From Salinimicrobium catena (lineage in GTDB: Bacteria > Bacteroidota > Bacteroidia > Flavobacteriales > Flavobacteriaceae): a stretch of DNA of 64,000 nt. The stretch spans positions 1 to 64,000 of the forward strand of contig NZ_FNGG01000007.1 in the NCBI RefSeq assembly GCF_900102915.1. Reading direction: 5' to 3'. Below the pieces are notes generated by a model. The model was not told where the DNA came from and ran no database searches. It saw only the letters and a program-made list of their open reading frames with translations. Shown here one piece after another: positions 6,459 through 61,873 of this stretch (within the stretch, counting starts at the first letter, position 1; every line of letters begins with the position of its first letter). Both the position numbers and the translations under genes were made by a program.

Positions 6459-7361
6459 CTATTCTCTCTCCAGCGTCAATTCCGAAAACAAATTCTCTAA
6501 ATTCTTGTTCTTCCTGTTAAGCTGCAGGGTTTTTAACCCGTGGTCGTGCGCGAAATCGAAAACCGCAGGACGCATGTCTTTTTGAGTTTCAAAAACCAGT
6601 TCATAGACGAAGCCGCCGGTGTTCATTATTTCTGTTAAATGAGGCAAACGCTTGAGGGCAACTTCCTCGATCCTGTAGTCAAATTCCACTTCAATGATCT
6701 GTACCTGCTCATCGCGAAGGGCGGCCAGCTTTTTATCGGCTACTATTTTTCCTTTGTTGATGATGATCACGCGTTCACACAAAGCTTCCACTTCACGCAT
6801 GATGTGAGTGGAGAGGAAGATGGTCTTCTCCTTCCCGGTTTCCCTGATAAGGTCCCTGATCTCCACCAGCTGATTGGGATCGAGCCCAGTAGTTGGCTCA
6901 TCCAGGATAAGCACTTCGGGGTCGTGCAGCAGCGCATTTGCCAGGCCCACTCTTTGGCGGTAACCTTTGGAAAGCTGTTCGATCTTCTTGTTGGCTTCGG
7001 GCAAAAGACCTGTCTGTTGGATCACCTCTTCGATACGTGATTTAGGAATCTTATAAATAGAGGCATTAAATTCGAGGTACTCCCGCACGTACATTTCAGG
7101 GTATAACGGATTGTGCTCGGGGAGGTAACCAATGCTCTGCTGTGCTTTAAGCAAATCTTTCTCGAGGGAAAATCCATTTACGGCGGCTTCACCTTCCGAA
7201 GCATCCAGGTATCCCGTGAGTATCTTCATTAAAGTAGATTTTCCCGCTCCGTTAGGTCCCAAAAATCCGACTATTTCCCCTTTTTCTATGGAAAAGGAAA
7301 CCTCATCCAGCGCCTTCTGCTCCCCGTAATACTTCGTAATTCCCTTGACTGAAATGGACAT
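6459..7361 (-). CDS. gldA: gliding motility ABC transporter ATPase GldA
   Basis: ATP-binding subunit of the Gld ABC transporter associated with Bacteroidota gliding, 300 residues. Walker A is GPNGAGKST (residues about 35-43), the signature is QLSKGYRQRV, Walker B is VLILDEPTTGLD, and the switch His is in STHIMREVE. The C-terminal extension (about 220-300) is typical of GldA-type CcmA/ABC-2 ATPases. It stands alone here; its membrane partners GldF and GldG are not in the window. The start ATG gives MSISVKGITKYYG, the normal N-terminus. Confidence 0.93.
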   Translation of the reverse strand: MSISVKGITKYYGEQKALDEVSFSIEKGEIVGFLGPNGAGKSTLMKILTGYLDASEGEAAVNGFSLEKDLLKAQQSIGYLPEHNPLYPEMYVREYLEFNASIYKIPKSRIEEVIQQTGLLPEANKKIEQLSKGYRQRVGLANALLHDPEVLILDEPTTGLDPNQLVEIRDLIRETGKEKTIFLSTHIMREVEALCERVIIINKGKIVADKKLAALRDEQVQIIEVEFDYRIEEVALKRLPHLTEIMNTGGFVYELVFETQKDMRPAVFDFAHDHGLKTLQLNRKNKNLENLFSELTLERE

Positions 7362-7451: not shown

Positions 7452-7482
7452 TTTTGTACTTTCAGATTAAATTCTACTTTAG
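7452..7482 (+). promoter_or_regulatory. candidate flavobacterial promoter for pheA leader
   Basis: TTTTG ends at 7456 and TACTTTAG spans 7475-7482, 18 bases apart. This approximates the Bacteroidota TTG / TAnnTTTG promoter with one mismatch in the -7 box. Initiation near 7488 would place the leader-peptide ATG (7501) about a dozen bases into the transcript. The call rests on consensus only. Confidence 0.5.
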
Positions 7483-7500
7483 TCGTTCAGAAAAACAACA

Positions 7501-7575
7501 ATGACAAAACGCATCTGGCAAACCTGGTTTTATTTTTATTTCTATTCAGGAGATAGGATCGGGAGTGTCGTATAA
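7501..7575 (+). CDS. pheL: aromatic leader peptide (pheA attenuator), 24 aa
   Basis: A short open frame from ATG 7501 to TAA 7573-7575 encodes 24 residues, of which eight of residues 6-15 are aromatic: W-Q-T-W followed immediately by F-Y-F-Y-F-Y. It lies 60 bp before the prephenate dehydratase gene and directly in front of a strong intrinsic terminator, the arrangement of amino-acid-controlled attenuators (known for gammaproteobacterial pheA/pheST; the Bacteroidota case here is my inference). ATCGGGA at 7558-7564, inside the last codons, can pair with TCCCGAT at 7600-7606, the 5' arm of the terminator. A ribosome stalled on the Phe/Tyr codons would leave it free to act as antiterminator; a ribosome reaching the stop codon would cover it. 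The symbol is by analogy. Confidence 0.75.
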   Translation: MTKRIWQTWFYFYFYSGDRIGSVV

Positions 7576-7596
7576 TGATATCAATTTTTATAACTC

Positions 7597-7628
7597 AAAT
7601 CCCGATGTTTTCATCGGGATTTTTTTTT
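7597..7628 (+). terminator. intrinsic terminator of the pheA attenuator
   Basis: AAATCCCGATG (7597-7607), loop TTTT (7608-7611), CATCGGGATTT (7612-7622), with an uninterrupted T-run from 7620 to 7628. The 11-bp stem with its T-run is a textbook intrinsic terminator. It lies upstream of pheA rather than downstream of a gene, which makes it a regulatory stop: the pheA ATG is only seven bases past the T-run. Confidence 0.85.
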
Positions 7629-7635
7629 GAAGAAT

Positions 7636-8499
7636 ATGAAAGAAAAAGTGGCCATACAGGGGATAGCAGGTTCTTTTCACCACCAGGTGGCGAGGGAATA
7701 TTTTGGGAATGAAGTGCAGGTAGAGGAGTGCATGACCTTTCAGTCGGTTATCGACAGCTTGAGGTCGGGCACTTCAGAAAAAGCGGTAATGGCCATTGAG
7801 AATTCCATCGCAGGCTCTATTTTGCCCAATTACGCGCTCATCGATGACAATGAGATCAGCATCACCGGTGAACATTACATACCCATTCAAATGAACCTGA
7901 TGGCGGTGCCGGGACAAAGCATTCAGGAAATAAAAAAAGTATATTCCCATCCCATGGCGCTGCTGCAGTGCAAGGAGTTCTTCAGGCATCATCCCCACAT
8001 CAAGCTCATTGAGGATGCAGATACTGCCTCGGTTGCCAAAAGGATCTCAGAAAATGGCAAAAAAGGAGTCGCCGCTGTGGCAAGTTCGGCAGCTGCGGAA
8101 CTTTTTAACCTGGAGATCATAGAAAGGAACATTCATACGGTAAAAAGCAATACCACGCGGTTCCTGATCCTTTCAGCAACAGCGAAGGAACAACAGAGCG
8201 ATAAGGCTTCGATCAAGTTCGTGATGGAAAGCAGGCAGGGCAGCCTGGTAAGCGCTCTAAATATTCTGAGGGATTATGAGCTGGACATGACCAAGATCCA
8301 GAGTGTGCCGGTGATAGAAATGCCCTGGAAGTACGCTTTTTTCATAGATGTAATTTTTACAGAGCCTGATAATTTTAAAAAGGCGATGCAGATCCTGGAG
8401 CTGATGACAGAACAGCTGAAGGTGCTGGGGGCTTACAAGAATGGAAATGCAGCCGGAAAGAGAGATAGACGATTGGCATTGGTGGAACCTAGAGAATAA
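7636..8499 (+). CDS. pheA: prephenate dehydratase
   Basis: Converts prephenate to phenylpyruvate in phenylalanine synthesis. Residues about 1-180 form the periplasmic-binding-like catalytic domain: QGIAGSFHHQVAREYF at the start, AIENSIAGSI (catalytic/binding loop, near residue 52) and SNTTRFLIL (the conserved TRF motif, near residue 175). The C-terminal part (about 195-275) is an ACT regulatory domain (ESRQGSLVSALNIL; the family ESRP appears as ESRQ). There is no fused chorismate mutase; that activity is on the next gene. The frame is open back to TTG 7627 inside the terminator T-run, so ATG 7636 is the likely start. Expression is probably set by the leader-peptide attenuator upstream. Confidence 0.95.
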   Translation: MKEKVAIQGIAGSFHHQVAREYFGNEVQVEECMTFQSVIDSLRSGTSEKAVMAIENSIAGSILPNYALIDDNEISITGEHYIPIQMNLMAVPGQSIQEIKKVYSHPMALLQCKEFFRHHPHIKLIEDADTASVAKRISENGKKGVAAVASSAAAELFNLEIIERNIHTVKSNTTRFLILSATAKEQQSDKASIKFVMESRQGSLVSALNILRDYELDMTKIQSVPVIEMPWKYAFFIDVIFTEPDNFKKAMQILELMTEQLKVLGAYKNGNAAGKRDRRLALVEPRE

Positions 8500-8605
8500 A
8501 GTGCTGTAAAAGCCGTATTTTTGCAGCCGGTAATGATGGGATAACTGAAGGCTGCTGTTCGTTAAATATTATCCCGCAGAATTAAATTTTTGACAGTAGA
8601 ATAAA
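8500..8605 (+). promoter_or_regulatory. pheA-aroF gap with a candidate -7 box
   Basis: TATTTTTG at 8516-8523 is a perfect Bacteroidota -7 element, but I see no well-spaced TTG. GGGATAA (8538-8544) and TTATCCC (8569-8575) are complementary and could form a 7-bp stem in the 5' leader of the next gene. No T-run follows it. The next gene may therefore have its own promoter in addition to read-through from pheA. Confidence 0.4.
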
Positions 8606-9688
8606 ATGGAGAATAAAAAGGAATTAAGAAACTGGCTGGATGCTTTCGGGCTTACTCACCCACTTGTTATCGCCGGCCCATGTAGCGCCGAGACCGAGGA
8701 ACAGGTGTTGAAGATCGCGCATGAGCTAAAGGATACGGATGCAACTGTATTGAGAGCAGGAATATGGAAACCCAGGACCAGACCGGGGAATTTTGAAGGA
8801 GTGGGAGCCCTGGGATTAAAATGGCTTCAGAAGGCCAAAGAAGAGACCGGTATGCTCACCACTACAGAGGTGGCCAATCCCACTCATGTTGATCTGGCGC
8901 TCAAACACGATATTGATATCCTATGGATAGGGGCGCGAACCACGGTTTCTCCTTTCATTGTACAGGAGATCGCCGACGCGCTGAAAGGAACAGAAAAGGT
9001 AGTGCTGGTGAAAAATCCGGTGAACCCGGACCTTTCTTTGTGGCTTGGAGCGGTGGAAAGATTGTACTCCAGCGACATCAAAAACCTGGGGGTGATCCAT
9101 CGTGGGTTCTCGACATATGAAAAAACCCGCTACCGGAACAATCCCGAATGGCAAATTCCCATTGACCTGCAGACAAAGTTTCCTGATCTTCCCTTGATCC
9201 TGGATCCTTCCCATATTGCGGGGAACCGCACCTCTATTTTTGATCTTTGTCAGACCGCCCTTGACCTGAACTACGACGGACTCATGGTAGAGACCCATTA
9301 CGATCCCGACAATGCCTGGAGCGACGCGCAGCAGCAGATCACGCCGGCTACATTGGTGCAGTACATGAAAGATCTTAAGATAAGAAAGGAGATCTCTGAA
9401 AGTCAGGAATTCCAAACAAAACTTCAAAATCTGAGGGCGATGATCGACATTGCCGATACCCAACTTCTGGATGTTTTGTCACGAAGAATGAAGATAGCTG
9501 ACGAAATAGGAAAAGCGAAAAAAGATCAAAACGTGGCTATTTTGCAGAATCAGCGCTGGAACGAGATCCTGGGGAAAATGATCCTGGAAGGGGAGCAGAA
9601 CGGCTTGAGTGAAGAGTTTATTTTGCGCATTTTCAAGGCGATCCATCAGGAATCCATCAACCATCAGAAAAAAGTAATTAGCGAATGA
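8606..9688 (+). CDS. aroF: bifunctional DAHP synthase / chorismate mutase (type II)
   Basis: Fusion that starts the shikimate pathway (3-deoxy-7-phosphoheptulonate synthase) and also converts chorismate to prephenate. Residues about 1-265 are a type I-beta DAHP synthase barrel (VIAGPCSAETEEQ near 20, KPRTRPGNFEG near 55, ILDPSHIAGNR near 200, ETHYDPDNAWSDA near 232). Residues about 270-355 are a helical AroQ-type chorismate mutase (LRAMIDIADTQLLDVLSRRM; VAILQNQRW). The chorismate mutase supplies substrate to PheA upstream. The 360-residue length is normal for this Bacteroidota fusion. Genes for prephenate dehydrogenase and an aminotransferase, which I would expect nearby in related genomes, are not between it and pheA. 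Confidence 0.95.
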   Translation: MENKKELRNWLDAFGLTHPLVIAGPCSAETEEQVLKIAHELKDTDATVLRAGIWKPRTRPGNFEGVGALGLKWLQKAKEETGMLTTTEVANPTHVDLALKHDIDILWIGARTTVSPFIVQEIADALKGTEKVVLVKNPVNPDLSLWLGAVERLYSSDIKNLGVIHRGFSTYEKTRYRNNPEWQIPIDLQTKFPDLPLILDPSHIAGNRTSIFDLCQTALDLNYDGLMVETHYDPDNAWSDAQQQITPATLVQYMKDLKIRKEISESQEFQTKLQNLRAMIDIADTQLLDVLSRRMKIADEIGKAKKDQNVAILQNQRWNEILGKMILEGEQNGLSEEFILRIFKAIHQESINHQKKVISE

Positions 9689-60984: not shown

Positions 60985-61726
60985 AAAAAGGTATCAGGAA
61001 AAATCACAGGAATAGAATATCAAAGCCGTTTTTTATTCTAAGGGGGTCGGGCAGTAAAGAGTCCTTTTCTAATCATGACAATAACAGATAAAAAAATCCC
61101 TCCGAAAATCATCTGACCTTCATAGGGATAATTGATTTGACTTTCGATAAGTCAAATGTGGGATGCGGAAAGCAATATGAACATCCCCTGAATCAACTTT
61201 AACCAAATTGAGGAGTATGAATTGAAGAATCTTTACTGCAAATACCATTTTTATTAATTTTCTTTCAAGAGCAACGAGAAATATCATTTTCTGTGATATG
61301 AGGAATTGAGGAGGCGAAATAAAGAAGGTTCTGTTAGTTTTGAATTTGTTTCAGGTTAATTAAGCACAAATGATTTCGTTCACCTTGAGACGAAAAAAAT
61401 GCTCAAAAAGATTCACAATTCAGTCAACATCGCGAATTTTAAACCATGAAATTTCATTGTTTGCATGGTCTGCGGGATGGGTTCTAAAATTCCCGCCATA
61501 GTTTCGTTACTACCTCTATGCATTCGCGGGTGCGTTAGTAGTGGTTGTCAGGTTGATGGAACTCAATTCCGTACTTTTTGGGCTTCGGCTTTCCACCAGG
61601 ATAGCACCATACCTCCTACTTCAGATAGAAATACTGAAGTAGTGTTGTGGAAAATTATGTGGACAACTTTCCAAGAGTGCAAAATATAGCTCTACCTTAT
61701 TGCCTACTTTTACACCCGTAAACCTG
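60985..61726. other. gap with right-end repeats and palindromes
   Basis: No convincing gene. TTGATTTGACTTTCG (61132-61146) and TTCACAATTCAGTCAACA (61412-61429) repeat motifs found beside the integrase. ATGAAATTTCAT (61446-61457) is a perfect palindrome. GCGGGA/TCCCGC (61472-61477, 61491-61496) enclose GGGTTC-AA, and CTACTTCAG/CTGAAGTAG (61616-61624, 61634-61642) form a 9-bp stem. A 74-codon frame at 61465 does not look like protein. The right boundary of the island probably falls here. Confidence 0.45.
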
Positions 61727-61843
61727 TAACTGAAAAGTATTACCCACTCGTAATAAGAAAGGGGAATCATGTGAAAATCATGAACTGTTGCGCAACTGTA
61801 AGTAGCTAATAGCTACAAGTCAGAACACCTTCCTTTTCAGTTA
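61727..61843 (+). ncRNA. adenosylcobalamin riboswitch aptamer
   Basis: P1 pairs TAACTGAAAAG (61727-61737) with CTTTTCAGTTA (61833-61843). Inside are the conserved blocks in order: GGGGAATCATGTGAAAATCA (about 61767-61786), CTGTTGCGCAACTGTAA (about 61789-61805) and the B12-box-like AAGTCAGAACACCTTCC (about 61817-61833; consensus AGYCAGGAnACCTGCC). The B12 box deviates from consensus at a few positions but the architecture is clear. It precedes B12-independent ribonucleotide reductase genes. Confidence 0.85.
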
Positions 61844-61873
61844 GACTTTACTTTCGCATAAAAAGTAAATGTC

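Follow-up and report, generated by a model that had tools for sequence, protein, structure and literature searches.

In Salinimicrobium catena the gene for prephenate dehydratase, pheA, is very probably controlled by a classical ribosome-mediated transcription attenuator that functions without a Shine-Dalgarno motif. The window analysed is a stretch of 64,000 nucleotides, and all coordinates given here are positions within it. A leader ORF is located between a candidate promoter of the Bacteroidota type and an intrinsic terminator, all directly before pheA, and the anatomy of leader, terminator and pairing segments is real and beyond chance. The proposal is based on sequence, namely on this anatomy, its conservation, pairing segments that change in step, their position relative to the codons and the promoter motif. 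The leader is presumably translated, with transcription and translation closely enough coupled, the terminator presumably works, and a response to each of the amino acids is expected.

Anatomy of the pheA leader region

The features of the locus are as follows.

7453-7482, + strand: candidate sigma-A promoter of the Bacteroidota type, with TTTG at 7453-7456 and a -7 box, TACTTTAG, at 7475-7482
7501-7575, + strand: leader peptide ORF MTKRIWQTWFYFYFYSGDRIGSVV, 24 codons plus TAA
7516-7545, + strand: regulatory codons, Trp at 7516-7518 and 7525-7527 and a Phe/Tyr run at 7528-7545
7523-7537, + strand: segment 1, which forms the protector hairpin 1:2 with 7549-7563 in the minimum-energy fold
7549-7564, + strand: segment 2, with the core ATCGGGA at 7558-7564; its partner is segment 1 or the 5' arm of the terminator
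7597-7607, + strand: segment 3, the 5' arm of the terminator, with the core TCCCGAT at 7600-7606, which forms the antiterminator with 7558-7564
7612-7622 and 7620-7628, + strand: segment 4 and T run of the intrinsic terminator (-15.5 kcal/mol)
7636-8499, + strand: pheA, prephenate dehydratase (PF00800, E 1.5e-59)
8606-9688, + strand: DAHP synthase-chorismate mutase fusion, called aroG here (PF00793 and PF01817), the next gene and probably in the same operon

The gap between pheA and the divergent gene upstream is 274 bases long. That neighbour, at 6459-7361 on the minus strand, we take to be an ABC-transporter ATPase from its sequence. The coordinates that the initial annotation gave for the reading frame were right: Trp at codons 6 and 9 and Phe-Tyr-Phe-Tyr-Phe-Tyr at codons 10-15 were confirmed base for base. 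Eight of the 24 codons are aromatic, and codons for the amino acid of the downstream operon are clustered in a short frame. The strong intrinsic terminator that had been placed at 7597-7628, between the frame and pheA, is also there, with a stem of 11 pairs (7597-7607/7612-7622) followed by nine T at 7620-7628, and the two short segments said to pair, ATCGGGA and TCCCGAT, are exact reverse complements. The most likely start of pheA is the ATG at 7636, 7 nt after the T run; an alternative TTG start at 7627 overlaps the end of the T run.

Conservation in the genus and family

The family sample consisted of 120 genomes from 119 genera, with a PheA match in 107 and none in 13. Two matches near contig ends (G013 and G042) were left out and 105 loci were obtained; ten more genomes of the window's genus brought the set to 115. 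An aromatic-rich leader precedes pheA in 112 of these 115 loci. In 110 the leader lies within 260 nt of pheA, and these are the leaders analysed below; L116 and L134, in which it lies further upstream, are outside those analyses. In the remaining three (L085, L100 and L133) an aromatic leader is absent from the 500 nt before pheA. L085 has direct repeats about 110 nt apart and a GC-rich hairpin, CCCGCC...GGCGGG, before pheA. The closest named PheA in the genome collection is that of Salinimicrobium sediminis (L015), with 75% identity to the window protein; a PheA scan of the genome contigs gave 24 loci, and the 23 others, mostly from Lachnospiraceae and 31-35% identical, were left out.

Within the genus all 12 genomes have the leader DNA, Tyr-Phe-Tyr-Phe-Tyr occurs in every one of the leaders, and segment 2 reads ATCGGGAG in 11 and ATCGGGGG in the remaining one. 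The aromatic codons and the pairing of 7558-7564 with 7600-7606, for which the initial annotation had suggested a comparison with relatives, are conserved in the genus, the family and the class.

Terminator-like sites are common in this DNA; 11 were listed in the 8 kb between 6500 and 14500 against 7.5 expected, the one before pheA having the most pairs, and an ordinary intergenic terminator that insulates pheA, accompanied by an ORF that arose by chance, could in principle look similar. The probability of this explanation is practically negligible. An ATG ORF with at least 7 aromatic residues in 10 is present within 260 nt of pheA in 109 of the 115 real loci but in only 6 of 2300 dinucleotide shuffles, and the 8 in 10 found upstream of pheA in the window is matched by none of 2000 shuffles of its own sequence. 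In addition, the upstream neighbour is on the other strand, and its transcript has no need of this terminator. The leader and the pairing are conserved in relatives, and changes in segment 2 are accompanied by changes in the terminator arm.

It had been suggested that the leader may sense Phe, Tyr and Trp together. The Phe and Tyr part of this suggestion holds well, as both occur in 110 of 110 leaders. The Trp part is weaker, with Trp, and thus all three amino acids, in 82 of the 110 and at least 18 changes on the PheA tree. This distribution suggests that Phe and Tyr are the constant part of the signal and that Trp is optional.

The residues that follow the aromatic run vary by genus (RDRIGSAV, KRGTGLL and RNETLYV are examples), and their codons carry segment 2. 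This variation bears on a different role for the ORF, that of encoding a small aromatic peptide with a function in trans, with the RNA switch secondary. An aromatic-rich peptide has been kept through the family, and PMC7298713 reports that another leader peptide acts in trans. Nevertheless, the differences between genera after the run argue against such a peptide, the window peptide has no match in Pfam, and neither it nor the peptides of three relatives have a match in NCBIfam. A peptide acting in trans is very unlikely to be the main function of the locus, though it may have such a role in addition.

Direct sensing of the amino acid by an aptamer or a protein-binding leader, that is, a riboswitch or an antitermination-protein site with the ORF incidental, is extremely unlikely. 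The leader RNA is indeed structured, with a fold z of -4.76 and none of 200 shuffles equally stable. However, in an alignment of 59 leaders the columns with at least 90% conservation fall in the codon run rich in T, in the core of the stem and in the T run, and there is no conserved unpaired core elsewhere in it. At gathering score Rfam 15 finds nothing upstream of pheA; its two matches in the window, to a tRNA and a cobalamin riboswitch, lie elsewhere.

Terminator and alternative pairing

An intrinsic terminator is located between the ORF and the structural gene in the window and in 110 of 110 family loci, these being the loci with an aromatic leader within 260 nt of pheA; L134 also has one. 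The antiterminator uses the 5' arm of this terminator, and the two structures are therefore mutually exclusive. In the window the 2:3 pairing has a local fold energy of -14.1 kcal/mol. For each leader the partner of the 5' arm was sought from the last aromatic codon to the terminator. In 106 of the 110 leaders no more than 5 of 100 shuffles gave pairing as good, and the mean energy was -11.0 kcal/mol against -4.8 for the shuffles. The four leaders that fail this test include L118, at -4.0 kcal/mol. In 109 of the 110, an unrestricted search placed the start of the arm's best partner 8-21 nt downstream of the first base of the last aromatic codon.

On average the two segments are also matched to one another within a species. 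When the terminator arms were permuted among species the mean weakened to -8.0 kcal/mol, a loss of 2.9, and none of 10,000 permutations equalled the real set. A leader's own arm beats that of another species in 78% of swaps, and foreign arms often pair almost as well. The central pair of 2:3 is A-T in 44 leaders, G-C in 34, G-T in 4 and A-C in none of the 82 leaders counted, the 28 of 110 that are without one or both motifs being left out. These counts were made on motif-anchored positions because segment 2 shifts by 1-2 columns between subgroups in the MAFFT alignment, which holds 59 of the 110 leaders, hand-picked across subgroups. The survey rows are related; on the PheA tree there are at least 5 changes of the central base of segment 2 and 6 of the arm base. 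A test of the central bases on independent pairs was never discordant, and with only 4 pairs and a median p of 0.25 it is underpowered.

The segment 1:2 hairpin was modelled as the probability that segment 2 is paired with segment 1 before segment 3 is made. The window value is 0.86. The mean is 0.75 for the real leaders against 0.47 for codon-shuffled ones, and the real value is the higher in 101 of 110.

The leader could instead act mainly on translation, by hiding the start of pheA, rather than on transcription. In the window the T run ends 7 nt before the ATG at 7636 and the stem could hinder initiation, yet nine T follow directly after the stem, and in L060, L070 and L087, which have the same anatomy, the stem lies about 87-125 nt before pheA. 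Control of this kind has very little probability.

Ribosome position and the proposed mechanism

In the folding model the ribosome footprint was assumed to begin 12 nt upstream of the P-site codon and to end 12 nt downstream of the A-site codon's first base, RNA upstream of it was treated as unpaired, the transcript extended up to the terminator loop and the output was the probability of the antiterminator, P(2:3). Averaged over the leaders, P(2:3) stays at 0.95-0.97 across the last aromatic codon and the ten codons preceding it, and falls to 0.59 two codons further on, 0.26 three codons on and 0.08 at the stop. This profile suggests that the end of the aromatic run coincides with the point from which a ribosome starts to mask segment 2. 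At the stop P(2:3) is below 0.2 in 91% of the 110 leaders. The geometry of the initial annotation, in which ribosomes stalled on Phe/Tyr leave the antiterminator free and ribosomes at the stop cover it, is reproduced by the model with its assumed footprint (0.96 versus 0.08), and the spacing fits it as well.

In the window P(2:3) is 1.0 over the Phe/Tyr run, 0.41 at codon 17 and 0.1 at codon 18; it then recovers to 0.52-0.74 for codons 19-22 and is 0.0 once the stop is reached. A stall anywhere from codon 3 to codon 16 gives at least 0.97, and the start codon 0.75. According to the model, codon position alone does not single out Phe and Tyr. With segment 3 out and no ribosome on the RNA, P(2:3) is 0.80 in the window and 0.67 on average. 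The antiterminator thus wins over the protector hairpin at equilibrium, and protection by 1:2 could only be kinetic; the fate of an untranslated RNA would likewise depend on kinetics.

The proposed mechanism is as follows. The nascent RNA would fold into 1:2 and, once segment 3 has been made, into either 2:3, the antiterminator, or 3:4, the terminator. When charged Phe- and Tyr-tRNA are plentiful, the ribosome would reach the stop at 7573 and cover segment 2; 3:4 would then form, and RNA polymerase would halt in the T run and not reach pheA. A shortage of charged Phe- or Tyr-tRNA, or of Trp-tRNA for codons 6 and 9, would stall the ribosome in codons 6-15 with its leading edge just short of segment 2, and segment 2 could capture segment 3. 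With 2:3 formed, pheA-aroG would be transcribed, or pheA-aminotransferase-tyrA-aroG in most relatives. Such a switch works only with a ribosome close behind RNA polymerase, and its conservation is therefore indirect evidence of coupling on these leaders.

Promoter and translation start

The -7 box TACTTTAG has one mismatch to TAnnTTTG, the flavobacterial and Bacteroidota -7 consensus given in PMC9723704 and PMC7366714, and transcription probably starts near 7488, about 13 nt before the leader ORF. In 105 of the 110 leaders the 50 nt before the ATG contain the motif TAnnTT[TAC]G, most often at -26, as compared with 10% of mononucleotide shuffles. The window leader has A at -3 and -6, and A is at -3 in 87 of the 110. 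None of the 110 leaders, the window's included, has GAGG or AGGAG in the 20 nt that precede its ATG. An A at -3 and the absence of Shine-Dalgarno sequences are described for flavobacteria in PMC6847099, and the promoter box, the A at -3 and the lack of a Shine-Dalgarno motif in the leaders thus fit published features of the group.

The operon and the apparent loss of tyrA

Of the family loci, 84 extend at least 3.3 kb past the start of pheA, and in 83 of them an aroG-like ORF follows. ORFs resembling the aminotransferase, tyrA and DAHP synthase-chorismate mutase genes are all present after pheA in 73; among the rest, nine have the DAHP synthase ORF alone, one is without only tyrA and one has none. 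The aminotransferase is presumed to be one from its sequence. In the window species and S. sediminis the DAHP synthase gene follows pheA directly, the aminotransferase and tyrA being missing between them (8499-8606 in the window). At E 0.001 PF02153, the tyrA domain, has no match in the genomes of these two species and is present in the other 10 of the 12 genus genomes. The leaders of the two species keep three and four Tyr codons, respectively. Each of the 12 genus genomes codes for a protein of some 600 residues that matches PF00351, the aromatic amino-acid hydroxylase family, in two pieces, and this hydroxylase-like protein is a possible source of Tyr. The PheA ORFs of the same two species are about 287-290 residues long as compared with 274-276 in most of the relatives listed.

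There may be more Tyr codons in leaders where tyrA is in the operon, with a mean of 3.7 at 69 loci against 2.4 at nine; this difference is suggestive only and is confounded by relatedness, as 7-8 of the nine loci with aroG alone have very similar leaders.

Occurrence outside the family

With the window PheA as query, 31 of 109 genomes surveyed in the class gave a match, the other 78 being outside the count; the set outside the family comprised 28 pheA loci, including that of G149 (L173). In 18 of the 28, from 12 families by code, a terminator accompanies a leader in which 6 or more of 10 residues are aromatic; the other 10 did not show this combination. When an antiterminator is added (at most 10 of 200 shuffles equal), 15 of the 28 remain, from 9 families. 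MKRFNTYFWFYYYFFKALPGFERVAVCC (L165) and MNRFSFTYYFYYFYFSRVKAGVCM (L160) are examples of these leaders.

In the survey of the order, PF00800 was found in 56 of 98 genomes and the best 30 of those loci were read. Among these 30, the families coded f58 and f62 (L185 and L198) have the leader anatomy. In f2, 13 of 14 loci have a different-looking PheA that starts MKIAFLGP and no leader, the fourteenth (L176) not being counted. The 11 loci of f69, from 0.6-Mb genomes, showed nothing convincing, with a Phe/Tyr-rich ORF only in L186 and L197, and the leader is absent from the f65 locus (L187).

It is about an even chance that the attenuator was inherited from early in the class and responds to Phe and Tyr together, with Trp added in most members, to set the entry to the aromatic pathway, by which is meant DAHP synthase-chorismate mutase and prephenate dehydratase and dehydrogenase in one operon. 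If this is true, close coupling of transcription and translation would be old and would have been maintained in a phylum without Shine-Dalgarno sequences, and Tyr codons would have persisted in the switch even where a lineage has lost tyrA.

Relation to known systems

A known counterpart is pheL-pheA of gammaproteobacteria (RF01859), in which a Phe-rich leader ORF, alternative hairpins and a terminator precede pheA, and it is in these three features that the flavobacterial locus resembles it. There are also differences. The flavobacterial leaders mix Phe and Tyr codons, often with Trp, whereas pheL-pheA uses Phe alone; none of the 110 has GAGG or AGGAG before the leader; and the operon of most relatives of the window adds an aminotransferase, tyrA and DAHP synthase-chorismate mutase. 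Leaders for several amino acids are known from E. coli ilvGMEDA (Ile/Val/Leu) and thrABC (Thr/Ile). As in those operons, a single leader carries codons for several amino acids of a shared pathway; however, the flavobacterial amino acids are aromatic and the phylum is a different one.

Structured 5' regions before pheA, hisG and other genes are reported for Flavobacterium psychrophilum and for other genera of Flavobacteriaceae in PMC9723704, with no Rfam match, and the same paper sees "strong clues" that leader peptides attenuate amino-acid operons more generally. The F. psychrophilum element is thus before the same gene, in the same family and equally without an Rfam match. The section of that paper on these elements gives no leader peptide, codons, antiterminator or range beyond the family for pheA; its Table S7 and Appendix D9 may hold more. 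Short ORFs reminiscent of leader peptides are mentioned for Bacteroides 5' UTRs in PMC7366714. Among the open PMC full texts searched, PMC9723704 is the only one found with a pheA 5' element in Bacteroidota, and the attenuation surveys cited in PMC4833913 may hold predictions for this phylum; the text of PMC2965389, by term search, does not name Bacteroid-, Flavobact- or pheA.

The statement of the initial annotation that few such leaders have been described in Bacteroidota therefore needs qualification, as a structured 5' element before pheA and general clues to attenuation were already on record. The mechanism itself is classical, and the conserved element before pheA had been noted in F. 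psychrophilum (PMC9723704). As far as open papers show, what is new is the exact anatomy at pheA, the fixed mixture of Phe and Tyr, the geometry over 110 genomes and the occurrence in other families of the class. The locus offers a clear and testable Bacteroidota case of ribosome-mediated attenuation, with exact coordinates and more than 100 natural variants. For flavobacterial genetics it is a candidate for a compact control element that responds to Phe and Tyr, and it could become a new Rfam family.

Other RNA elements and leaders in the genome

A permissive Rfam search gave 27 matches, all below gathering score, and no family membership was assigned from it. The best of them, MicX, at 28.1 bits (E 0.00015) against a gathering score of 75, was rejected, and RF01859 Phe_leader, at 23.5 bits against 55 (E 0.075 in a search of 301 bases), falls short of membership. 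The cobalamin riboswitch RF00174 is located at 61719-61850 of the window, with 55.3 bits.

Two other loci of the same genome have a comparable arrangement. The leader MKFNFANNWWWKHLRRSS, with three consecutive Trp codons (WWW), precedes trpE together with a terminator and a pairing segment (L218, 1329-1450), and MKAKQLDHHHSHSFALAR, with HHHSH, precedes hisG in the same way (L220, reverse complement, about 1193-1320). By their sequences these are probably a trp and a his attenuator, respectively. Counting these two leaders, the organism appears to regulate no fewer than three amino-acid operons by attenuation, and the trpE leader is a candidate sensor dedicated to Trp.
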